A stretch of 45,740 bases of DNA. It comes from Trueperaceae bacterium. GTDB lineage: Bacteria > Deinococcota > Deinococci > Deinococcales > Trueperaceae. The notes beneath the pieces were generated by a model, which was given only the letters and a program-made list of their open reading frames with translations, was not told where the DNA came from and made no database searches. The stretch lies in assembly GCA_020354625.1 (NCBI GenBank), contig CP070651.1, positions 3,939,847 to 3,985,586 on the forward strand, written 5' to 3'. Shown one piece after another: positions 18,031-43,351 of this stretch; position 1 is the first letter of the stretch, and every line of letters begins with the position of its first letter. The translations under genes were made by a program, and so were the position numbers.

Positions 18031-18690
18031 GTGTGGATGTTCGAAGACCGCCGAGAAGCGGGTAAGAAACTGGCCATGGCGCTTTCCGGGTATGCCGGTC
18101 GGAACGACGTGGTGGTTTTGGCTCTGCCACGTGGTGGTGTTCCGGTGGCCTTCGAAGTAGCCTGCTCGCTACGCGCCCCACTCGACCTATTGCTCGTAAG
18201 AAAGCTAGGCGTCCCCAGACACAGGGAATTGGCGATGGGAGCCATCGCTTCGGGCGGGGTGCGCGTTATGAACGACGAGATCGTAAATACCCTCTCCATA
18301 TCGAGAGAAGCGATCGACGAGGTCGCTCGAGCAGAAACGGTGGAGCTGGAGCGGCGCGAGCGGGCCTACCGCGGCGACCGAGATCGAGTCGACATCGCAG
18401 ATCAGACCGTGATCGTCATCGACGACGGCATCGCTACCGGAGCGACCATGCTGGCGGCTGTGTCGGCCCTCAAGAAGCTGAAACCTGCCCGTGTGGTGGT
18501 GGCCGTACCCACGGCAGCTGCGGACAGTTGTATTAAACTCCGGCGCACAGCCGATGAGGTCATCTCGTTGGCAAACCCAGAGCCCTATATCGCCGTGGGT
18601 CGCTGGTATCGCTTGTTCCCCCAAACCAGCGATGTGGAGGTCAAAGATCTGCTCGACAAAGCTGCCGAGCGGCACCAACCGACCCCGTGA
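18031..18690 (+). CDS. Phosphoribosyltransferase (PRTase fold)
   Basis: A 219-residue type I phosphoribosyltransferase. The PRPP-binding loop is VIVIDDGIATGATM at about residue 125-138, and the N-terminal FEDRREAGKKLA and ALPRGGVPVA are characteristic of a widespread subgroup of unassigned PRTases. It may act on a nucleobase or another acceptor; no substrate is evident. AAGGAGGAG lies 6 nt before GTG 18031. Its stop overlaps the archease start, so it is in the RNA-repair operon, which might hint at a nucleotide-salvage link. Confidence 0.85.
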   Translation: MWMFEDRREAGKKLAMALSGYAGRNDVVVLALPRGGVPVAFEVACSLRAPLDLLLVRKLGVPRHRELAMGAIASGGVRVMNDEIVNTLSISREAIDEVARAETVELERRERAYRGDRDRVDIADQTVIVIDDGIATGATMLAAVSALKKLKPARVVVAVPTAAADSCIKLRRTADEVISLANPEPYIAVGRWYRLFPQTSDVEVKDLLDKAAERHQPTP

Positions 18691-19148
18691 AGAGAGTGGT
18701 CGAGCTGATGAATGAGAAGAGGCATCTCGGCATTTATCCACTCGATCACACCGGAGATGTGGGGTTCGACCTGGAGGCAGAGAGCTTGAATGAGCTCTTC
18801 GAAGCGGCCATGATCGCCCTTCTCAGAGCGATCTTCACGCTGCCTCCAGAGCAGGTGGTATGGAATCTCGACATTCAACTCGAGGCTACCACTCTAGAAA
18901 CGCTCTTCGTCCAATGGCTCGACGAGCTGCTATTTCTCACCCAAACCAGAAACTCCGTCCCGGTTAGGTGTACACCAGAAGTGCACCCACAACCAGGCGG
19001 CTGGCGACTCAGCGCATCCCTAGGGACAGCACCACTAGAACCAGAAAAACAGGGTTGGCAAGGAGAGCTCAAAGCGACTACCTATCACGATCTCACCATC
19101 GGCAAACGAGAGGGAGCATGGCATGCCCGCATCATCTTCGATGTCTGA
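18687..19148 (+). CDS. Archease (RtcB activator)
   Basis: Archease promotes guanylylation and turnover of the RtcB ligase. The family pattern is visible: LDHTGDVGFDLEAESLNELFEAA near the N-terminus with metal-binding Asp residues, FVQWLDELLF in the middle, and KATTYHDLTI plus ARIIFDV at the end. About 150 residues is normal. GTG 18687 overlaps the preceding stop (GTGA); ATG 18708 is an alternative start. The rtcB gene follows after about 90 nt on the same strand, which strongly supports the assignment. Confidence 0.88.
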   Translation: MKRVVELMNEKRHLGIYPLDHTGDVGFDLEAESLNELFEAAMIALLRAIFTLPPEQVVWNLDIQLEATTLETLFVQWLDELLFLTQTRNSVPVRCTPEVHPQPGGWRLSASLGTAPLEPEKQGWQGELKATTYHDLTIGKREGAWHARIIFDV

Positions 19149-19241
19149 GCGATCCCGACCGGCACCTCGGAATATTCGTGCCGGCAATAAGAGACACGGT
19201 GAAGACGACCGTCGGTTTCCAGCTGGATGGGGGAGGTAGTC

Positions 19242-20684
19242 GTGACCGAGACCGTACCGTTTGAAAAGATCGGCTCAGGCCGATACCGTATTCCACGCCA
19301 CGGCAAGATGCGCGTAGACGCCCTGTTTTACGCCTCAAAAGAGATCCTGGCCGGGCTCGAAACCGAAGAGTTCGCATCGCTCAGACAGCTCATCAATGTC
19401 GCCTGTCTACCCGGAATCGTCGAACCTGCCCTAGCCATGCCCGATATCCACTGGGGCTACGGGTTTCCGATCGGCGGGGTAGCCGCTTTCGATGCTGCAA
19501 GCGAGGGGGTAGTCAGTCCTGGTGGGGTCGGCTACGACATCAACTGCGGCGTGCGCTTGCTCGCCTCTGGTCTCGACAGAAGCGATCTCGGGGCACATAA
19601 AAAGGCCCTGGCCGACGCTCTATACCGGCTCATCCCAGCCGGTGTCGGTTCCAAGCGGAGGGGCGAACATCTGGCGCCCAAGGAGCTCCGGCGCTTACTA
19701 GAGCAGGGTGCAGCCTGGATGGTGGGGAAAGGATTTGGTGACGAGGCCGATCTACGCTATCTCGAATCGGGCGGGGTGTTTGCGAATGCCAACCCGGACA
19801 CTGTATCTCCACGGGCTCTGGAACGGGGCGCTGCGCAACTCGGCACCTTGGGTAGCGGTAACCACTTCCTAGAAGTACAGCTCGTCGACCGGATCTTCGA
19901 TCGCAAAGCGGCTGAGGCCCTCGGTTTGCACCTAGACCAGATCACCGTGCTGATTCACACCGGTTCTCGCGGGCTCGGGCATCAAGTGTGCAGCGATTAT
20001 GTCGGCACCTTCTTGAAAGCAGCCCCTCGCTACGGCATCGATCTACCCGACCGGCAGCTGGCTGCCGCACCGATCGAAAGCAGCGAAGGGGAAGCGTACC
20101 TGGGGGCCATGGCGGCTTCGGCAAACTTCGCCTTCGCCAACCGCCAGCGTATTACCGCCAGCGTTCGTGCCGCCTTTGAAGAGATCGGCTTCTCACCGCG
20201 TGATCACGGGTTGCGCGTGGTATACGATCTAGCTCACAACAACGCCAAGTTCGAAACCCACAGGGGCAAGAAGTTGCTGGTCCACCGCAAAGGGGCAACC
20301 CGAGCGTTCGGTCCGGGGCACGCCGAACTGCCGCAGGACTACCTCAATGTAGGGCAACCCGTGTTTGTCCCCGGCGACATGGGACGTTACTCGTTCGTGC
20401 TGGTCGGTACCGACACCGCTATGCGAGAGACGTTCGGATCGAGCTGCCACGGAGCGGGACGCAAAATGAGTCGCCACCGTGCCAAAAGGGAAGCGCGCAA
20501 GCGGAATCTGATCGAAGAACTCGGTGAACAAGGGATCTTGATCCGCGCCGCCAGCCGCGCCACCGTGGATGAGGAGATGCCGGAAGCGTACAAGGATGTC
20601 GCCGATGTGGTCGACGTGGTCGACACCGCCGGGATCGGTAAGAAAGTCGCGCGGCTCCGGCCGCTGATTGTGGTGAAAGGGTAA
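19242..20684 (+). CDS. rtcB: RNA-splicing/repair ligase RtcB (archease-linked copy)
   Basis: Joins RNA 2',3'-cyclic phosphate or 3'-phosphate ends to 5'-OH ends using GTP and Mn2+. Key stretches are MPDIHWGYGFPIGG, GGVGYDINCGVR (metal Asp and Cys), LGSGNHFLEV, HTGSRGLGHQ, DLAHNNAK and SCHGAGR with the His that is guanylylated. The 480 residues are full length. GTG 19242 is preferred over ATG 19227, because GGGGGAGG (19229-19236) sits just before it. Operon partner of archease. Heptad element 4 begins at its stop codon. Confidence 0.96.
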   Translation: MTETVPFEKIGSGRYRIPRHGKMRVDALFYASKEILAGLETEEFASLRQLINVACLPGIVEPALAMPDIHWGYGFPIGGVAAFDAASEGVVSPGGVGYDINCGVRLLASGLDRSDLGAHKKALADALYRLIPAGVGSKRRGEHLAPKELRRLLEQGAAWMVGKGFGDEADLRYLESGGVFANANPDTVSPRALERGAAQLGTLGSGNHFLEVQLVDRIFDRKAAEALGLHLDQITVLIHTGSRGLGHQVCSDYVGTFLKAAPRYGIDLPDRQLAAAPIESSEGEAYLGAMAASANFAFANRQRITASVRAAFEEIGFSPRDHGLRVVYDLAHNNAKFETHRGKKLLVHRKGATRAFGPGHAELPQDYLNVGQPVFVPGDMGRYSFVLVGTDTAMRETFGSSCHGAGRKMSRHRAKREARKRNLIEELGEQGILIRAASRATVDEEMPEAYKDVADVVDVVDTAGIGKKVARLRPLIVVKG

Positions 20685-33119: not shown

Positions 33120-34445
33120 TCACTCTCCTTTGAGCACGAGCACCGGTCGCAAGCGACCGACGACCCGTGCGATACCCGGCTCGACAACAGCTTGAATGAC
33201 CTCATCGACATCTTTGTAGGCCGCGTATGACTCATCGAGTGGTACATGACGGAAGCTGCCCATCACCCCTTGTCGATCGAACTGTCGATCGACGATCTTC
33301 TGATCCAATTCTCTCTTTGCCTGACTGCGACTCAACAGCCGACCAGCACCGTGCGGAACCGACTCACCATAGAGGTGAGCATTTGGCCCGGGCTCGAGAA
33401 CATAGGACAGCGTCGACATACTGCCCGGGATGAGTAGGGGGATCCCCTGATTGTCATAGGCGGGGGTTGCACCCTTGCGCTGCCAGAACCTTCCACCTCT
33501 ACGCTCGATAAAATTATGGGGAATGTGTCCCAGAAATTCATAGGTTTCGACACCCAAGTGCTTACAGAGGACCCGAGAAGCTGCATCTTGAACCTTGAGG
33601 TGATTGAACGTGGTGTACTCCAGCATAGCCTGCTGGAACATGAAATAGAGTTTGCCTAGACGCGTGTCGGCAGGGACGAAGAGGAGTTCATCCCACCCCC
33701 ACGCACGACCGCTCCGCTCGCTCAAATCCTCGCGGACCAGCTCGAAAAACATCTCGGACCCGACTGCTCCCAGACCGCGAGAGCCAAAATGCGCCATCAC
33801 GTAAAGAGCGCCATCCTCACCCACTTGGACTTCCAAGAAGTGGTTGCCCCCACCGATGGAACCGATCTGTTCAAGCAGGCGTCTCGTAACGAGCGTACGC
33901 ATCAACTCCTCAAACTCACCAAAGATCCCTGTAGCGGTTGCGTATAGGGGAGGGTGAGCACTTACCCACGTCCTAGGCGCTCTACGCATCCCTGAAACGA
34001 TCTCCATGAGCTCATCGAAATCGAGGGGGACGTGTCGGTATGTCACCCGCCCCCGTCCACGACGTCGCGTCACGGAGATAGTCTCTTCAAGCTCGTCGAT
34101 GATAGCCCGACGAGAGGGTTTATCGAGGCGATCGAAACCACTCGTAGTGATCTTGGAAAGGGAGACGGAGCAAGCCGGGTCCGGGCCGACCGTATCTGGG
34201 TAGAGGTGAGTCGGTGACACCGCAGTAAAGCCGATCGGCACGGCGTAGCCGGTATGAACGTCAGGGGTGAGGATGACTCGCTCCAAACCCGGTAAATGCA
34301 GCGCTTGCTCGAGCTGCTCGAGCGCCCCCTCTTCGAGATCTCTAAAGAGCCGCTCCGTCAAGATCATGGTGAGGTTCACCCCGCAATAGCACCCTCGATA
34401 GATCCCATCCCGACACTGCGTGACCTCAAAAGCTCGTTGCGACAT
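33120..34445 (-). CDS. RtcB-family RNA ligase, divergent second copy
   Basis: A 441-residue RtcB paralogue with low similarity to the copy at 19242. Catalytic positions are kept: TPDVHTGYAVPIGF, VGPDPACSVS (metal Asp and Cys), IGGGNHFLEV, HFGSRGLG, HIPHNFIERR, and PHGAGRLLSRSQAKR with the guanylylated His. In the main RtcB the residue before that His is Cys and here it is Pro. No archease gene is beside it, so it may work without one or on different RNA ends. ATG 34445 has GAGAGG upstream; GTG 34451 is also in frame. Confidence 0.88.
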   Translation of the reverse strand: MSQRAFEVTQCRDGIYRGCYCGVNLTMILTERLFRDLEEGALEQLEQALHLPGLERVILTPDVHTGYAVPIGFTAVSPTHLYPDTVGPDPACSVSLSKITTSGFDRLDKPSRRAIIDELEETISVTRRRGRGRVTYRHVPLDFDELMEIVSGMRRAPRTWVSAHPPLYATATGIFGEFEELMRTLVTRRLLEQIGSIGGGNHFLEVQVGEDGALYVMAHFGSRGLGAVGSEMFFELVREDLSERSGRAWGWDELLFVPADTRLGKLYFMFQQAMLEYTTFNHLKVQDAASRVLCKHLGVETYEFLGHIPHNFIERRGGRFWQRKGATPAYDNQGIPLLIPGSMSTLSYVLEPGPNAHLYGESVPHGAGRLLSRSQAKRELDQKIVDRQFDRQGVMGSFRHVPLDESYAAYKDVDEVIQAVVEPGIARVVGRLRPVLVLKGE

Positions 34446-34586
34446 GGTCACCTCTCTACCTCGCCCCGACAGCCACTCTCTTGGGGATGCTCAACTGCTT
34501 AAGACCTTGTCCGCTCTACCCTCTTCCCCTTAGCGACGAACACACCTTGCTCGCTCACACTCGTTCCCGACCGGTGCGAGATGGCA

Positions 34587-35942: not shown

Positions 35943-36361
35943 CGGCTCCTCCCTCCCGATCCACCACAAACTCCCATCTCCAAGGCCACCACCCAATCAC
36001 CTTCTAGAAAGCGGGGGTCGGATTACGACCGCGACAACTATTCGATTTCAGCCTACCGCTCCTGCCTGGGGCATGCTAGAGCCAAACGTCCCAACCGACC
36101 GGCCAGAACCGGAAATCACCCGTCATCGTCAGGAAACCTCAAATGCCGAAAAGATCGTAAGGTCCGTTAAATTCCCACACCATCTGTCGGAACTTTCCCG
36201 ATTTGCGTTCGGGGCTTCACTCCTAAGCTAGACGGAAGATGTTGCGTCACCCAGGTGGACGCGAAGTTCCGCAGGCGCAGCTGTGATGCCCGTGGAGGGT
36301 AGTGGTTTGTACACACTACGTCATACCAGAGCTCGTACCGAAACACAGAGAAGGTGCTGCT
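35943..36361. other. Intergenic region upstream of the sigma factor gene
   Basis: About 420 nt between the divergent malic enzyme and sigma factor genes. No supported gene. A 15-codon frame at 36239-36286 follows TAAGCT but is not convincing. The sigma factor's own promoter could not be identified with confidence. Confidence 0.4.
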
Positions 36362-37426
36362 ATGCACAGGACCACCTCACTCAACGAAACACGTCTCGGG
36401 TCACATCGGAAGAGTGCTTTTTCTATGCTCGATCAAGAAAGTGAACCGGTTTCGACAAAAGGTTTGAAAACAGCTACAAACGGAGCCGAATCGGGCGTTA
36501 AAGACCCGATCACACAGTACCTGCACGAGATCGCCAAGATCAGACTGCTCAACCAGCAAGAAGAGATCGATCTCGCCCGTCGCATCGACGCTGGAATGAA
36601 GGCCGCTCGGCAACTCGATGGAGAGGGGCCGGCTCTGACAGCCCGTTCCGCTCGAGAGTTGAAGCGTCTTGTGCAAGACGGCCTATCAGCCAAAGAACAA
36701 CTGACCAACGCCAACCTACGCCTGGTCGTCTCGGTGGCTAAGAAGTACCGCCGCGTATCTCACGAGTTTAGCTTCCTCGATCTCATTCAGGAAGGCAACC
36801 AAGGGTTGATGCGGGCAGTTGAAAAGTTCGACTATCGAAGGGGATATAAGTTCAGTACCTACGCCACGTGGTGGATCCGACAGGCGATCGGGAGGGCCAT
36901 CGCCAGCAAAGCACGGACCATTCGGCTACCCATCCATCTGAGTGAAACACTCGGCAAGCTCAGCCACACCAGAGATCAACTTCAGCAAGTGTTGCGAAGG
37001 AAACCGACACCTGCTGAGATCGCCGATGAGATGGGAGTCGGTTGGAACGAAACACGGGTCGAAAGAACCCTTGGGGTTGCGCGCTCACCGATCTCCTTGG
37101 AAACGCCCAGCGGAGATGATGAGGGGTATGTACTCGGCGACTTCATCGCCGATGAAAGCGTAGAGCCGCCTGAAGAGAGAGCCGACCGGAATTTCCTCGG
37201 CAACTCGGTCGAACAAGCACTTGGGCTTCTCACCGAACGAGAAGCACAGGTGCTACGCATGCGCCACGGCTTTCTCGATGGCTATGAACACACCCTCGAA
37301 GAGATCGGCTCTCAGTTCGGCGTGACCAGAGAGCGCATCCGCCAGATCGAGAGCCGGGCATTACGCAAGTTGAAACTCTATGAAAATCGGACCCATAAAC
37401 TCCGTAGCTTTCTCGAAGAGAGTTGA
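36362..37426 (+). CDS. rpoD: RNA polymerase primary sigma factor (SigA/RpoD)
   Basis: A 354-residue group 1 sigma70. Region 1.2 ([28 protein letters not shown]), region 2 ([47 protein letters not shown]), region 3 ([14 protein letters not shown]) and region 4.2 ([21 protein letters not shown]) are all present, ending [19 protein letters not shown]. That ending and the short region 1 resemble Thermus and Deinococcus SigA. The spacer between regions 1.2 and 2 is short. ATG 36362 follows GAGAAGG; the open frame extends to 36302. A group 2 paralogue is not excluded. Confidence 0.93.
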
Positions 37427-37457: not shown

Positions 37458-37481
37458 TTCCTTCGACTTTCAGCGAAGGAA
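37458..37481. terminator. Hairpin between convergent rpoD and DUF4384 genes
   Basis: TTCCTTCG (37458-37465) and CGAAGGAA (37474-37481) form an 8-bp stem with an 8-nt loop. The minus-strand stop codon (37470-37472) lies in the loop. No T-run, so a weak or atypical bidirectional terminator. Confidence 0.45.
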
Positions 37482-38015
37482 GAAGTGGGTCTCCACCACA
37501 TCGCGACTATCCCTCGGGAAGGGTTCGATCTCGGTAATGATGGTTTGCGTCCAGAGATCATCACCCCGCTTCCCGAGATAGGTGATGCTGCCGGTGTTCG
37601 TCTCCGTCGACGTGAAGGAGGCGCGAACCCGGTGGAGTCCTCTCGGTGGCTCGAGCGAGAAGACGAATCTGTCTCCTCGTCTAGGAATGGTTGTGGTAGA
37701 CCCGGCCTCGATAAAGATATTGCGCATCAAAACGTAGACAGCTCCATCGGGATCGATAGCGGTCAAGGTAAGGAACCCGTCCTGACGGGCCCTGACGCGA
37801 AAGCTGATCCGCTCCCCCACAAAGTAGGTGGCGCCAGACCCACGATCTGGTTCAAAAACCGTGATGATATCGCCCAGTTCGATTCCGATACGCAACCGAC
37901 CCCGCACAAACACATCACCAGGCCGAACATAGATGGTACAGGCCGTCAAGAGGACCATGACAAGAGCGGTAAGAGCGATCAGACCGTAGCGTGGCTCTTT
38001 GCAAACTCGATTCAC
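37470..38015 (-). CDS. DUF4384-domain lipoprotein
   Basis: A 181-residue secreted lipoprotein. The N-terminus is a lipoprotein signal peptide with a lipobox LLTAC, so it is anchored to a membrane. The mature part has FRVRARQDGFLTLTAIDPDGAVYVLMRN, the core of the DUF4384 beta domain, found in outer-surface and peptidase-linked proteins. Its role is unknown. GTG 38015 is 7 nt after GGAGGG. It is divergent from the baeRF gene. Confidence 0.8.
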   Translation of the reverse strand: MNRVCKEPRYGLIALTALVMVLLTACTIYVRPGDVFVRGRLRIGIELGDIITVFEPDRGSGATYFVGERISFRVRARQDGFLTLTAIDPDGAVYVLMRNIFIEAGSTTTIPRRGDRFVFSLEPPRGLHRVRASFTSTETNTGSITYLGKRGDDLWTQTIITEIEPFPRDSRDVVETHFFLR

Positions 38016-38506
38016 CTTGGTTCCCTCCTACCTCTCATGTTAGCCGACATCGCCTACGATTGGACTCATCAAGCCTTCATTCCCGCTTCACACACCGGCT
38101 TTCAACCGACCTAGCCAATCGCGGGTCAGGCCCGATTTGGGTAGGCTCATCGGGTGAGATTGAGATATCCGATCGTCGTTTCGTCCCTAATCCGTGCTGC
38201 CACCAGAACGGCGCATAGAATGGATAGCTGTGAAATGCGGATCGCTGCAATACCTTCTGCTCTCCTCACAAACCTCGAAAACATCGCAACAGCTCCATTC
38301 GCCTGCCAACAAGCAGCAAACCACACCACACAGCGCAACTGGGTCCGTCGAACTCCTACACCCCTTGTCAGAGACTTGCCGATACGACCTGCCACTCGAC
38401 CTGCATAGGCTGGTAATGGGCGGCGTGGAGTTGGTATTCCTAGACACTCAAAGGGTGCCTAGACAGAAATGCTGATAACCAGAATTCCGAATAGGAGGTG
38501 AGGCAG
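38016..38506. other. Intergenic region without a recognised gene
   Basis: About 490 nt between divergent genes. Overlapping frames exist on both strands (80-90 codons) but show no protein-like composition or start signals. A bulged hairpin (around 38115-38136) is the only structure seen. Confidence 0.35.
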
Positions 38507-39664
38507 GTGCTGACAACAGAAGCGATCCGCACCGTGCAGGAGGTAATCGCACCACAGCGTGACCCCGTACTCTCTCTCTACCTCGACGTAAACCCCGCAC
38601 ACGCTGAAAATGCTCGCGGAGCGCCGCTGATTCGGGCCAAGGAAGCCATCAAAGCGCTGGGCGTCCCCAAACCGTTCACGGAGGCCTTTTTGAAAGGGCT
38701 CACTCACCATCACGGTATCCCTCAAGCACGTACCTTGGTCAGCTTCGCCAGCGAGGATCTCAACGCATTTTTCGTAAACTACCCACTACAGTTAGAGCTC
38801 CCGCTGCTTACCAGCGGAGGCGTCATTGCCCGCTGGGGTCCGCCCTATGTCTTGCCACTATTACAAGTCCTCGACGCCCAGGAGCGCCACGGTGTGGTCT
38901 ATGTAGATCGGGCACGCTGGCGTTATTTCGAGGTGTTTTTCGGCGACATCGAAGAGAAGCAAGATGCCTTTCGACCGCTCGATCCCAGCACCTGGCGCCG
39001 CCTGAGCGACAGCAAACCGGCGGCTCACGGAATACCTGCCCGAGGCGGTTCGGGTAAAGACCGCTTTGAGCAACGCAAAGAGGCTTGGACTCGGCGCTTT
39101 TACCGCGACGCCGCCAAACTCCTCGAGCAAGCCGTAAAAGCCCATGGGATCGACCACCTGTTCATGATGGGACTCAAACCACAGGTACAGACCTTCATCG
39201 GCAGCCTGAGTGAAGAGCTCAAAGGTGCAGTGGTGGCAACCCTCCCCCCACCTGCCAACCCCGCAGCTCCGGCCAGGGAGATCCTCGACTTACTCAAACC
39301 CCACCTGGAACGCCTCCAGTGTCAACAAGACCAGAAGCTACTACAAGACATCTCCGAGCGAGGTGTGAAGGGCCTAAGTGAGACCCTCGAAGCGCTTCAG
39401 GCAGATCGGCTTCAGATCGTTGCTGCCCCATGGAAACTCGATCTCACTGTCTACCGTTGTAGCGAATCGGGTTACTTGAGCGCCACCCCCTCATCCGCTT
39501 CACAGCTCTGTCCCGATCAACACCATAGACCCGTACCGTTACAGGAGATCCTACCCGAACTCGTCGCCTCTCACGGAGCAAAACTCACCTTCCTGAACTC
39601 TGAGAGTGCGGTTGAGTCGATCTCTTCATCAGGAGGATTGGCTGGGCTGGCGCGCTGGTATTGA
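38507..39664 (+). CDS. baeRF-family protein (bacterial eRF1-like release factor homologue)
   Basis: A 385-residue homologue of archaeo-eukaryotic release factor eRF1. The N-terminal domain begins PVLSLYLDVNPAHAENARGA; the middle domain has GVVYVDRARWRYFEVFFGD; then comes a loop GGSGKDRFEQRKEAW, in the place of the eRF1 GGQ loop; and the C-terminal domain has HGIDHLFMMGLKPQVQTFIGSL with ISERGVKGLSETLEAL. Related proteins are predicted to rescue stalled ribosomes by peptidyl-tRNA hydrolysis. GTG 38507 has AGGAGG (38492-38497) upstream; the frame opens at 38498. Confidence 0.8.
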   Translation: MLTTEAIRTVQEVIAPQRDPVLSLYLDVNPAHAENARGAPLIRAKEAIKALGVPKPFTEAFLKGLTHHHGIPQARTLVSFASEDLNAFFVNYPLQLELPLLTSGGVIARWGPPYVLPLLQVLDAQERHGVVYVDRARWRYFEVFFGDIEEKQDAFRPLDPSTWRRLSDSKPAAHGIPARGGSGKDRFEQRKEAWTRRFYRDAAKLLEQAVKAHGIDHLFMMGLKPQVQTFIGSLSEELKGAVVATLPPPANPAAPAREILDLLKPHLERLQCQQDQKLLQDISERGVKGLSETLEALQADRLQIVAAPWKLDLTVYRCSESGYLSATPSSASQLCPDQHHRPVPLQEILPELVASHGAKLTFLNSESAVESISSSGGLAGLARWY

Positions 39665-39944: not shown

Positions 39945-42059
39945 TCAAGTAGGGTAGAAACTCTTCCCCTCCTCGGCCATTTCAGTGAGGAGCGCCGTGG
40001 GTTTGAAACGCTCGCCACGCTCCTGGGCGAGGCGTTCCATGGCACCGACAACCACCCGCGCACCGAGTTGATCGATATGCCAAAACGGGCCGCCGAGGAA
40101 GGGAGGGAACCCGAGTCCGAATACGGCTCCGACATCTCCATCTCGCGGAGATGTGATGACTCCTTCCTGGAAACAGCGCACTGCCTCGTTGATCATGATC
40201 ATACTTAGACGTTCCTGTATCTCTTCTGTAGCAACGCCCTTACGATCCTTGCCACCAAAAAAGCGGTAGATGCTGGTATCGATCTCTTTGAGCTTTCGAC
40301 CGTCTCTATACCTGTAAAATCCTCGTCCGCTCTTCCGCCCCTTATATCCCGCCTCAACGAGCCTCTTACTCGTATCGTCATCTACAACCCGCCCTGTGAA
40401 GGCTTCTTTGAAAAAGCTGGTGATCTCAGCTCCCACATCGAGACCTACTTCATCAGCGAGCGTAATCGGCCCGACGGGAAATCCGAAATCGACCATGGCC
40501 TGATCGATCACCTTGGCATCGGCTCCCTCTTTGAGCAGCTGGAACACTTCAAAAGACATAAAAGACAACACACGGGTCGTATAGAATCCGGGAGAATCGT
40601 TAACGATGATCACGGTCTTACCCTGCTTTAGACCCACTTCAACAGCGGTTGCCAAAGCCCTGTCTTCAGTCTTTTCGGCCTTCACGATCTCGAGCAGAGG
40701 CATCTTTGAAACGGGGGAAAAATAGTGCATACCGAGAACTCTGCCGGGATGCACGGCGTCCCTTGCGATCGCTTCGATCGGTAGGGCAGAGGTGTTGGAA
40801 GCGAACACCAGCTCGGATGAGGCCACCGCCTCGACATCTCGAAGGACCTGTCGTTTGAGCTCTAGGTTTTCGGGGACCACCTCGATAATGAGTCCGGCAC
40901 CCCTCAAAGAAGTATCGGTCTCGACGAGCGAGACGCGTTCTGCAATCTGGTCACGCTCGAAACGAGTCATCCCCTTCCCAACACGTCGTGTCAGCTCACG
41001 ATAGAGATTTCCCTTGCCCTGAGCCGCAAGATCGAGTGAACGATCTTTGAGAAGGACATCGAAACCCCTCTGAGCGCTGACGTGAGCAATACCGCTGCCC
41101 ATGAACCCTGCCCCGAGAACGCCCATCACGTCAATCCGGTGCGCCAAGCCCTTGTAGGGGCTCTTTTCAGCTGCGTTCTTGGCAAAAAACAGATGGATCA
41201 GAGCCTTCGATTCGAGCGTGAAGACCAACTCTGCGAAATGGGTCGCTTCGGCGATCAAGCCGGCCTCGACTCCCTTTTCCATCCCGGTCCGTACCGCTTC
41301 GATGATCTTTCCAGGAGCGGGGTAGTGTCCTCGCGTCTCCTGCTGAACGGTTTCCACCGCCTTGGAATAGACGAGGTTTGCAAGAGGTGTTCTCTCGAGC
41401 AGCAATTCCGAGAGCGTCAGCCTCGCTCTCTTTACCCTCTTTAGGCGGCCCTCGGCCAGCTCCAAAACAGCACGTTTGGCAGCTGTGAGCAGCCCTTGAT
41501 GATGAATGAGGGCATCGACCAACCCCATCTTTCGAGCAGGATAGGGGAAGACGTTCTTGCCACTCAAGATGAGCTCGAGACCTCTCTGCAAACCGATCAA
41601 GCGGGGTAAGCGCTGAGTACCACCAAAACCGGGCAAGAGTCCTAGCTTCACTTCTGGCAGGGCGAACTTGGTACTCCTGTCCAGGCTGGCAAGGCGATAA
41701 TGGCAAGCGAGCGCGAGCTCGAGACCACCCCCCATACAAGCGCCATGAATGGCTGCAACGACCGGTTTTTTCAAAGACTCCAGCCGGTTCAAAAGCGCTT
41801 GTCCCCTGCGGATGGTTGCGTGCACCTCTTGCTTGGAACGAAACTCTTCGAACAGCCTGATGTCGGCACCGGCCAGAAAGTTTTTCGCTTTGCGACTGAT
41901 CAGGACAGCACCTTTCAACTCCGACTCGCTCTCGATCCTGTTGAGAGTGGTAGCGAGGTCATCGATCATGGTCCTGGTAACCGTATTCACCCTGGAATCC
42001 GCCGTATCCAGCCAGACGACCGCCACGCCATCTTGTATCTCGAGTACGAGATCGCTCAC
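39945..42059 (-). CDS. fadB: Fatty-acid oxidation multifunctional enzyme (enoyl-CoA hydratase / 3-hydroxyacyl-CoA dehydrogenase)
   Basis: Carries steps 2 and 3 of beta-oxidation in one 704-residue chain. The N-terminal crotonase domain has HGACMGGGLELALACHYR and LPEVKLGLLPGFGGTQRLP, with both catalytic Glu. The dehydrogenase part has the NAD-binding GVLGAGFMGSGIAH, HYFSPVSKMPLLEIV with the catalytic His, and NDSPGFYTTRVL. GTG 42059 overlaps the fadI stop (GTGA) and has GAGAGG upstream. It forms an operon with the thiolase. It might be called fadJ instead; the two are not separable here. Confidence 0.93.
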   Translation of the reverse strand: MSDLVLEIQDGVAVVWLDTADSRVNTVTRTMIDDLATTLNRIESESELKGAVLISRKAKNFLAGADIRLFEEFRSKQEVHATIRRGQALLNRLESLKKPVVAAIHGACMGGGLELALACHYRLASLDRSTKFALPEVKLGLLPGFGGTQRLPRLIGLQRGLELILSGKNVFPYPARKMGLVDALIHHQGLLTAAKRAVLELAEGRLKRVKRARLTLSELLLERTPLANLVYSKAVETVQQETRGHYPAPGKIIEAVRTGMEKGVEAGLIAEATHFAELVFTLESKALIHLFFAKNAAEKSPYKGLAHRIDVMGVLGAGFMGSGIAHVSAQRGFDVLLKDRSLDLAAQGKGNLYRELTRRVGKGMTRFERDQIAERVSLVETDTSLRGAGLIIEVVPENLELKRQVLRDVEAVASSELVFASNTSALPIEAIARDAVHPGRVLGMHYFSPVSKMPLLEIVKAEKTEDRALATAVEVGLKQGKTVIIVNDSPGFYTTRVLSFMSFEVFQLLKEGADAKVIDQAMVDFGFPVGPITLADEVGLDVGAEITSFFKEAFTGRVVDDDTSKRLVEAGYKGRKSGRGFYRYRDGRKLKEIDTSIYRFFGGKDRKGVATEEIQERLSMIMINEAVRCFQEGVITSPRDGDVGAVFGLGFPPFLGGPFWHIDQLGARVVVGAMERLAQERGERFKPTALLTEMAEEGKSFYPT

Positions 42060-43351
42060 GCGCCGTACCTCTCTACAATCGTTGCGTAGCCTAAGCCGCC
42101 GGCCGCGCACGACGTTACCAAAGCGAAGTGGCCGTCTTCAGCCCACAAGCGGTTTGTAGCGGTAGTCATCAATCGGGCGCCCGTTGCCCCAAAGGGGTGG
42201 CCCAGTGAGATCGACCCCCCCCAACGATTGACCCTATCGAGTTCGATGTCGGCCACCTTGCTGGTCCTGGCCAGTTTCTCACGCGCGAAGGTCTCGGACT
42301 CGAGAGCGGCCAACACCGCCAACACCTGGCCCGCAAAAGCCTCGTGGACTTCGATCACCTCGAGATCAGTGAAGGAGAGGCCCAATCGGTCCAGAACCGT
42401 GGGGACTGCGTAGGCCGGACCCAACAACAATTCCTCATTGGGATCTTGCGCCACAAAAACCTGCTCGCGCAAAATCGCTTTAGGTTGGTAGCCGAGCTCG
42501 AGCGCTCTGTCCTCACTCATGAGCAAGGTGGCAGCAGCACCGTCGGTGAGGGGACTCGAGTTACCGGCCGTCACCGTCCCAAAGGGCTTCACAAATGCCG
42601 GTGCAAGCTTACTCAGTCTCTCCATGCTCGTGTCGGTACGAATCGTGTTGTCGTCTCTGAGTGCTTTGAAGGAGGGGGGAACCGCGATGGGGCAGATTTC
42701 GGGCACGAGTTTCCCGTCTTGTGTCGCCCGGGCCGCCAATTGATGGGAGCGTAGAGCGAAAGCGTCCTGCGCTTCTCGACTTACTCCGAAACCAGCTGCC
42801 AATTTATCGGCGCTCTCCCCCATCGCTTCACCGGTGGAGTACTCAGCGATCTCAGGAGCACGAGGGAGGAGATCACTCGAACGCAACCCCTTCAAGAACC
42901 TGGCGTACTGCAGCGGCGAAGAATACTTTCTCGCCTCGAAAAACTTCTTGCGGACCTCTTTTTTAAAGCCGATCGGCACATCTGAGAGCATCTCTACACC
43001 ACCGGCAATGACTATCTCGGCCTGACCACTCTTGATGAGGTTCATGCCGTCGGCGATCGCGCGGCTGGACGAAATACAGGCCATGGTGAGGGTATACGCC
43101 ACGACCGTGTTGGGAAAACCTGCGGCCAGAGCAGCGTCACGAGCAATATTGCTGGTCGAGGGGTTTTGAATCACACTACCCATAATGACGGCGTCTACTT
43201 GAGTGACATCGAGTGCATTACGAACCGAAATGCCCTTCAACACGCTACGCGCCAAATCGTAGGAGATCAGATCGGCATAGTCGGTACCCGCACGTCTGAA
43301 AGGGGTTCGACAACCGTCGACGAGAACAACTTGTGTATCCGCATCGGGCAT
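42056..43351 (-). CDS. fadI: Acetyl-CoA acyltransferase (3-ketoacyl-CoA thiolase)
   Basis: Last step of beta-oxidation: thiolytic cleavage of 3-ketoacyl-CoA. The 431 residues have the active-site Cys in LTMACISSSRAI, GGVEMLSDVP, NSSPLTDGAAA, the HEAFAGQ His, GGSISLGHPFGATGAR, and the second Cys in SCAAGGLG. Longer than FadA (about 390) and closer to FadI. TACACT 6 nt before ATG 43351 suggests a leaderless operon transcript, with fadB downstream. Confidence 0.92.
   Translation of the reverse strand: MPDADTQVVLVDGCRTPFRRAGTDYADLISYDLARSVLKGISVRNALDVTQVDAVIMGSVIQNPSTSNIARDAALAAGFPNTVVAYTLTMACISSSRAIADGMNLIKSGQAEIVIAGGVEMLSDVPIGFKKEVRKKFFEARKYSSPLQYARFLKGLRSSDLLPRAPEIAEYSTGEAMGESADKLAAGFGVSREAQDAFALRSHQLAARATQDGKLVPEICPIAVPPSFKALRDDNTIRTDTSMERLSKLAPAFVKPFGTVTAGNSSPLTDGAAATLLMSEDRALELGYQPKAILREQVFVAQDPNEELLLGPAYAVPTVLDRLGLSFTDLEVIEVHEAFAGQVLAVLAALESETFAREKLARTSKVADIELDRVNRWGGSISLGHPFGATGARLMTTATNRLWAEDGHFALVTSCAAGGLGYATIVERYGA

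Follow-up and report, generated by a model that had tools for sequence, protein, structure and literature searches.

The closest described systems are the baeRF families and the Balon-type ribosome hibernation factors. As for the former, section 7 of Burroughs and Aravind (PMC6514570) describes family 10 as having a well conserved, possibly catalytic Gln. In the literature examined, peptide release by any bacterial baeRF is a prediction only (that of Burroughs and Aravind for family 10), and no release assay on a baeRF protein was met in a search of open-licence papers, made in part with narrow searches. The solved relatives of Balon, in contrast with the release predicted for family 10, hibernate ribosomes. 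Thermus thermophilus is among the species named as having Balon homologues in the part of PMC10901736 used here, and a 2026 archaeal paper (PMC13324472) tells Balon from aeRF1, in the passages available, by the missing NIKS and GGQ.

The window, that is the whole 45.7-kb stretch of DNA analysed here, contains a further Balon/baeRF protein with an informative loop; its gene quite probably encodes a non-hydrolysing, Balon-type A-site ribosome hibernation factor of baeRF family 10.

The gene and its family assignment

The features of the gene are the following:

38507..39664, plus strand: coding sequence of 385 aa, baeRF family 10 / Balon-like, with a GTG start and the stop included
38493..38498, plus strand: AGGAGG ribosome-binding site, 8 nt 5' of the GTG start (sequence inspection)
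38507..38842, plus strand: N-terminal domain, aa 1-112, on the decoding-centre side in aeRF1-type proteins, here without NIKS (translation, fold)
38843..39289, plus strand: middle RNase H-fold domain, aa 113-261, Pfam baeRF_family10
39041..39076, plus strand: loop R179-R190, RGGSGKDRFEQR (profile alignment, family alignment)
39290..39661, plus strand: C-terminal Pelota/eRF1 domain 3, aa 262-385, ending GGLAGLARWY (translation, fold)

The frame 38507-39664 is open on the plus strand, and GGSGKDRFEQR corresponds to residues 180-190 of its translation. The earliest listed in-frame start is a GTG at 38498; because it overlaps the AGGAGG (38493-38498), the GTG at 38507 is the better start. The N-terminal domain was taken to end where Pfam begins to match the following domain, and inspection of the translation found no NIKS string.

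Regarding the family, the protein scored 94.7 bits (8.3e-27) with Pfam baeRF_family10 (PF18854), against a gathering cut-off of 27.1, so that its identification as a baeRF protein in the initial annotation was correct; baeRF_family5 (4e-17) and baeRF_family12 (6.5e-7) also exceeded their cut-offs, with weaker scores. The profile search had been proposed against both VLRF1 and baeRF families, and it was the baeRF side that answered, since acVLRF1 gave a weak match (0.066), below its cut-off. In NCBIfam, the nearest models were the Msmeg1130 and Rv2629 ribosome hibernation factors; the scores with the three hibernation equivalogs were 39.4 bits versus a cut-off of 480, 31.1 versus 320 and 13.1 versus 330, and the match of the Balon model was not significant (0.049). 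Because these scores fall far below all three cut-offs, the protein is Balon-like and lies outside NCBI's three named hibernation equivalog families.

All 39 sequences of one family alignment (A3) match PF18854 at E ≤0.001, with the note that some of them had been fetched with PF18854 itself. One family match was found in the genome of origin, and the closest relatives among named genomes are Trueperaceae bacteria, with 46-49% identity, which makes an origin of the window in the Trueperaceae (Deinococcota) probable. Among genomes of at least 90% completeness, matches above the cut-off occur in 66 of 86 in the phylum of the window (its own genome included); for the phylum to which a Chloroflexus genome belongs the count is 29 of 121, and for that of a cyanobacterial genome 3 of 116. 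The distribution is patchy, because the window protein used as query found matches in 33 of 61 genomes of its relatives, its own included. A plasmid search returned a single weak match, to a Deinococcus plasmid protein with a VLRF1-family annotation (24.8% identity).

Similarity to solved structures

The search of solved structures with the single sequence gave matches at chance level (best E 0.078), and for this reason a family profile was needed. With the narrow profile (the window protein and 18 relatives), Msmeg1130 was matched at 8.9e-19 across positions 18-382, eRF1 at 1.4e-8 across the last two domains and Rv2629, below eRF1, at 0.00047; with the wide profile (39 members), the values were 2.7e-41 for Msmeg1130, 1.5e-28 for archaeal aRF1, 4.7e-23 for Rv2629 and 1.6e-11 for Pelota. 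Balon itself (8rd8, 8rdv, 8rdw) was reached by none of the three sequence profiles.

The AlphaFold2 model had a mean pLDDT of 87.3 and a pTM of 0.77, with residues 161-190 at low confidence (block means 66, 50 and 71). In this model, the loop segment follows the third strand of the middle domain and opens the long helix H180-213, the place where section 7 of PMC6514570 describes the GGQ loop. Comparison with VIA-align ranked six Balon-type chains in the first six places (Z 20.2-27.1), followed by eRF1 (≤17.8); Msmeg1130 (8v9l) had a Z of 27.1 and an rmsd of 3.8 over 344 aligned residues, and Balon (8rdv), matched by fold only, a Z of 23.4 and an rmsd of 4.9 over 328. Foldseek placed Balon-type chains at ranks 1-4, 6 and 8, with eRF1/aRF1 chains mixed in from rank 5; among the chains listed, TMq was 0.58-0.71 for the Balon-type and at most 0.54 for eRF1/aRF1. 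The identity of the window protein to the solved Balon-type chains is 12-19%, and both the profile and the fold point to Msmeg1130, a hibernation factor of the Balon type, as its closest solved relative.

The three-domain, eRF1-like plan put forward in the initial annotation is thus confirmed by the profile match over positions 18-382 and by the predicted fold, and the structure prediction that it had called for sets the segment at the GGQ place, in a stretch of low confidence (residues 161-190), with eRF1 matches at Z ≤17.8. Its description as a release-factor-like family holds in that the protein is of the aeRF1 type, and leaves out the closest family with solved ribosome complexes, the Balon-type hibernation factors, which it did not name.

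The same fold family includes Pelota and Dom34, whose chains gave Z values of 9.8 to 12.4, and the protein might instead be a non-catalytic rescue factor of that kind, entering the A site of stalled ribosomes for subunit splitting and not for storage. According to section 7 of PMC6514570, the catalytic Gln is missing from the Dom34 family too, and Burroughs and Aravind suggest a role in inhibition or disassembly for those baeRF families that are inactive. This explanation is unlikely, as the Balon-type chains fit better (Z 20.2-27.1 versus ≤12.4) and the wide profile favours Msmeg1130 over Pelota (2.7e-41 versus 1.6e-11); in addition, a S30AE/HPF gene and tmRNA are present elsewhere in the same genome, so that ribosome rescue need not rely on the baeRF protein.

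The loop and its evolution in family 10

In the profile alignment, RGGSGKDRF lies over the RGGQSALRF of eRF1 without gaps, with GGS where GGQ would be; S182 is opposite the Gln of the eRF1 GGQ, and K184 is opposite the Gln of the family-10 GGxSQ. As for the latter register, GGWSQ is present in five of the six top-scoring family-10 matches obtained (L138-L143, Chloroflexota, 147-158 bits), with L142 as the exception; this motif fits the GGxSQ pattern, which section 7 of PMC6514570 describes for archaeal and actinobacterial/chloroflexi VLRF-1 families. The comparison of GGSGKDRF with GGWSQANY is gapless from GG to the aromatic residue, and because of this the Gln of GGWSQ falls on K184. The catalytic Gln is therefore absent from the window protein in either register (GGQ or GxuQ). 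That GGSGKDRFEQR occupies the GGQ position, as initially annotated, agrees with both this gapless alignment and the model; the accompanying statement that Ser replaces Gln is valid in the eRF1 register and fails in the GGxSQ register of family 10, where the replaced residue is K184. In Msmeg1130 (PDB 8v9j), both profile alignments put RAGQ in the columns of R179-S182, where eRF1 has RGGQ; hence, the presence of Gln in this loop is not in itself a sign of a hydrolase.

The evolution of the loop was followed on the matches from 121 loci (identical stretches taken once) together with 41 of the 48 loci L122-L169. Rows of at least 340 aa were kept; the distant group L102-L121, the partial proteins L136, L157, L158, L160, L161, L165 and L169, and one false frame of L101 were removed, and dropping the rows more than 95% identical to an earlier one reduced 105 rows to 92. 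Of these, 86 entered a tree built without the loop columns, and six more distant rows were left out (column 184 is Q in L135 and L166, K in L167, D in L168, I in L162 and a gap in L149). This quick tree, which has several long branches and carries a warning that long branches meet, separates a Chloroflexota clade (15 rows) from the clade of the window protein (71 rows) with an SH-aLRT of 100.

The two clades treat the Gln column differently. In the Chloroflexota clade, the Gln is found in 14 of 15 rows (GGWSQ in 10 of 15), and by its IQ-TREE rate it belongs to the slowest 1% of sites there (1st percentile). In the window clade, column 184 has Q in 24 rows, K in 14, T in 13, R in 12, V in 3 and other residues in 5, while column 185 has D in 68 and E in 3, and column 190 has R in 66, K in 4 and H in 1; the corresponding rate percentiles, as the previous one from a fast LG+G8 run, are the 69th for K184, the 3rd for D185 and the 8th for R190 (IQ-TREE). 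P30 of the YLDVNP motif is likewise kept in 69 of the 71 rows. The starred branches of the tree force the Q label to change at least five times. Judging from the sequences, the well-conserved Gln published for family 10 fits the Chloroflexota clade and not that of the window.

The nearest kin of the window protein (L002, L003, L004) have RGG[AS]GKD, the Thermus loops read RGGAGQD (one RGGADQD), those of Meiothermus RGGSGKD or RAAANTD, that of Chloroflexus QAMGNRD, and those of Desulfobacterales RAGAA[VM]D. Meiothermus hypogaeus has two family-10 paralogues, with the loops RGGSGKD (L061) and RAAANTD (L070). The Gln in the Thermus-type sequences may be functional, because 21 of the 24 Gln rows of the clade form one group of closely related sequences of this type.

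A second possibility is that the protein is an active peptidyl-tRNA hydrolase, in which the role of the GGxSQ Gln is taken by D185, K184 or Q189. The GG pair and R179 do persist in the window protein and in its nearest kin, GG is found in 44 of the 71 rows, the residue at 185 is acidic (D or E) in all 71, and the GGWSQ clade holds its Gln tightly. However, a single clade shows Q, K, T, R, V or yet another residue at position 184, GG is lost in 27 of 71 rows, and position 189 carries Q in 2 of 71, with no other conserved Gln in columns 178-194 to which the function could have been relocated; moreover, the profile alignment puts a Glu of Msmeg1130, a hibernation factor of solved structure, in the D185 column, and for this reason an acid at 185 does not alone mark a hydrolase. 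We regard this activity as very unlikely, and the earlier suggestion that another residue may be used finds no support; the other option offered with it, a non-hydrolysing ribosome binder, appears the better one, given the drift of the Gln column in the clade.

The preferred reading, that of a non-hydrolysing hibernation factor, follows from this drift: a residue that positions water should not drift, and because column 184 varies among Q, K, R, T and V next to fixed neighbours, hydrolysis is presumably no longer required in the window clade. The loop pattern fits a lost peptidyl-hydrolase constraint with ribosome binding kept. With Lys for Gln in a release-factor active site, the window protein probably no longer cleaves the peptide, a reading based on evolution.

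A tentative and on the whole rather doubtful scenario would place such a change within family 10: a GGxSQ peptide-releasing factor would have become a hibernation factor, the Deinococcota-centred clade would have lost the need for Gln and fixed the neighbouring acid and Arg as a ribosome grip, and Thermus GGAGQ would have kept or regained hydrolysis. If true, one orthologous family would hold both states, as a natural series of Q-to-K mutations. The branch with SH-aLRT 100 has the Chloroflexota clade, which keeps the Gln, on one side and the Q/K/R/T clade on the other, so that the two are directly comparable; peptide release by GGWSQ proteins, if absent from GGSGK proteins, would show the change from release to hibernation inside one family. 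The Thermus orthologues suit structural work.

Genomic context and comparison with known systems

The baeRF gene is solitary, since the flanking ORFs at 37470-38015 (5') and 39945-42110 (3') are both on the minus strand, and it has no stress-gene neighbour in an operon. The former ORF encodes a DUF4384 protein, lipoprotein-like by eye, with LLTAC close to the N-terminus, and lies antisense between the baeRF gene and that of an RpoD-like sigma factor (36302-37426, plus strand). Neither sigma-70 promoters (one promoter-like site versus 0.9 expected) nor terminators (0 versus 1.6) near the gene exceeded the shuffled sequences.

As for its closer relatives, 25 of 50 loci have a gene for ClpB, a ferritin-like protein, Hsp20, Usp or DnaJ at no more than 500 bp and in the same orientation (23 loci at 300 bp, 27 at 1000 bp); this raw count covers L052-L101, with L102-L121 outside it, and relies on mechanically called ORFs, with one member per cluster named by Pfam and a weak ferritin-like call (rubrerythrin, 6.6e-6). 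Pooling 129 of 147 neighbour ORFs from 22 of 70 loci (the 18 omitted include doubtful antisense or very long ones) gave raw counts of 6 Usp, 3 Hsp20, 3 rubrerythrin, 2 Lon_C and 2 DnaJ_C. The order ClpB, ferritin-like protein, baeRF family 10 recurs in L057, L069, L087 and other Thermus loci, and Hsp20 follows in L069 and L087; the Thermus arrangement is an apparent heat-shock operon. Similar stress neighbourhoods, with RtcB among the neighbours of some Balon genes, are reported in the part of PMC10901736 used here.

The window also contains an archease gene (18687-19145) directly 5' of a canonical RtcB gene (19227-20681), both on the plus strand and preceded by a phosphoribosyltransferase gene, and a second, divergent RtcB gene (33120-34451, minus strand). 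The product of the latter has 30% identity to the first and scores below the NCBIfam RtcB cut-offs; it has DPACS for DINCG, with the Cys retained, and the aligned motifs NHFLEV, GSRGLG and HGAGR are retained as well.

The initial annotation had pointed to these genes in the same window, as linked to damaged RNA and stalled translation in other systems. On such a view, the baeRF protein might belong to an RNA-damage module and work with RtcB as in the prfH-RtcB pair. Two RtcB genes and archease do share the 45.7-kb window, the genome search found no further RtcB, and the neighbours of some Balon genes include one, as noted above. Nonetheless, about 18 kb separate the archease-RtcB pair from the gene, the second RtcB, at 4.1 kb, is encoded on the opposite strand, with malic-enzyme, sigma-factor and DUF4384 genes in between, the window protein is of the aeRF1 and not of the prfH type, and among the 129 neighbour ORFs scanned in relatives the 25 most frequent of 171 families do not include RtcB. 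The functional link was rejected on account of the distance, the strand and the relatives' common neighbours, and such a module is highly improbable.

In conclusion, the homology, the fold, the loop position, the absence of Gln and the lost constraint at its site are seen in the sequence and the model, and A-site binding, contact with EF-Tu and hibernation are most likely, by analogy with the solved homologues. Upon stress, the protein would occupy the A site in 70S ribosomes that are vacant or stalled, with the N-terminal domain at the decoding centre, the loop of the middle domain beside the peptidyl-transferase centre and the C-terminal domain toward EF-Tu; entry of tRNA and factors would be blocked, and the nascent peptide would not be released. 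The loop, D185 and R190 would be retained for holding the ribosome, as in Balon. Counted against hibernation are the low identity, the lack of a sequence match to Balon, the rank of Rv2629 below eRF1 (narrow profile) and aRF1 (wide profile), the scores far under the NCBIfam equivalog cut-offs, the GGAGQD of Thermus in the same clade, the conserved Gln published for family 10, and the solitary setting of the gene, with no stress gene in an operon.

Compared with the known systems, the protein shares with the Balon-type factors (Msmeg1130, Rv2629 and Psychrobacter urativorans Balon) the three-domain aeRF1 fold and the lack of GGQ and NIKS; they are its best structure matches, Msmeg1130 is its best profile match, and their stress-gene neighbourhoods are likewise seen among its relatives. 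It differs from them in its 12-19% identity and in missing all three NCBIfam equivalog cut-offs, and from Msmeg1130, which has RAGQ in the aligned columns, in retaining the GG pair of the loop. With baeRF family 10 (PF18854; Burroughs and Aravind 2019), it shares a match above the Pfam cut-off; however, the Chloroflexota clade of this family has a near-fixed Gln (14/15), whereas the window protein has Lys and its clade Q in 24 of 71 rows, and that clade has four Cys in its majority consensus, as a zinc ribbon expects, whereas the window protein has two there. Finally, the aeRF1/eRF1 release factors have in common with it the fold, the RGG and RF around the loop and the C-terminal GGxxGxxR ending, but the window protein lacks Gln at GG+1 and NIKS, and its structural similarity to them is lower than to the Balon-type factors.
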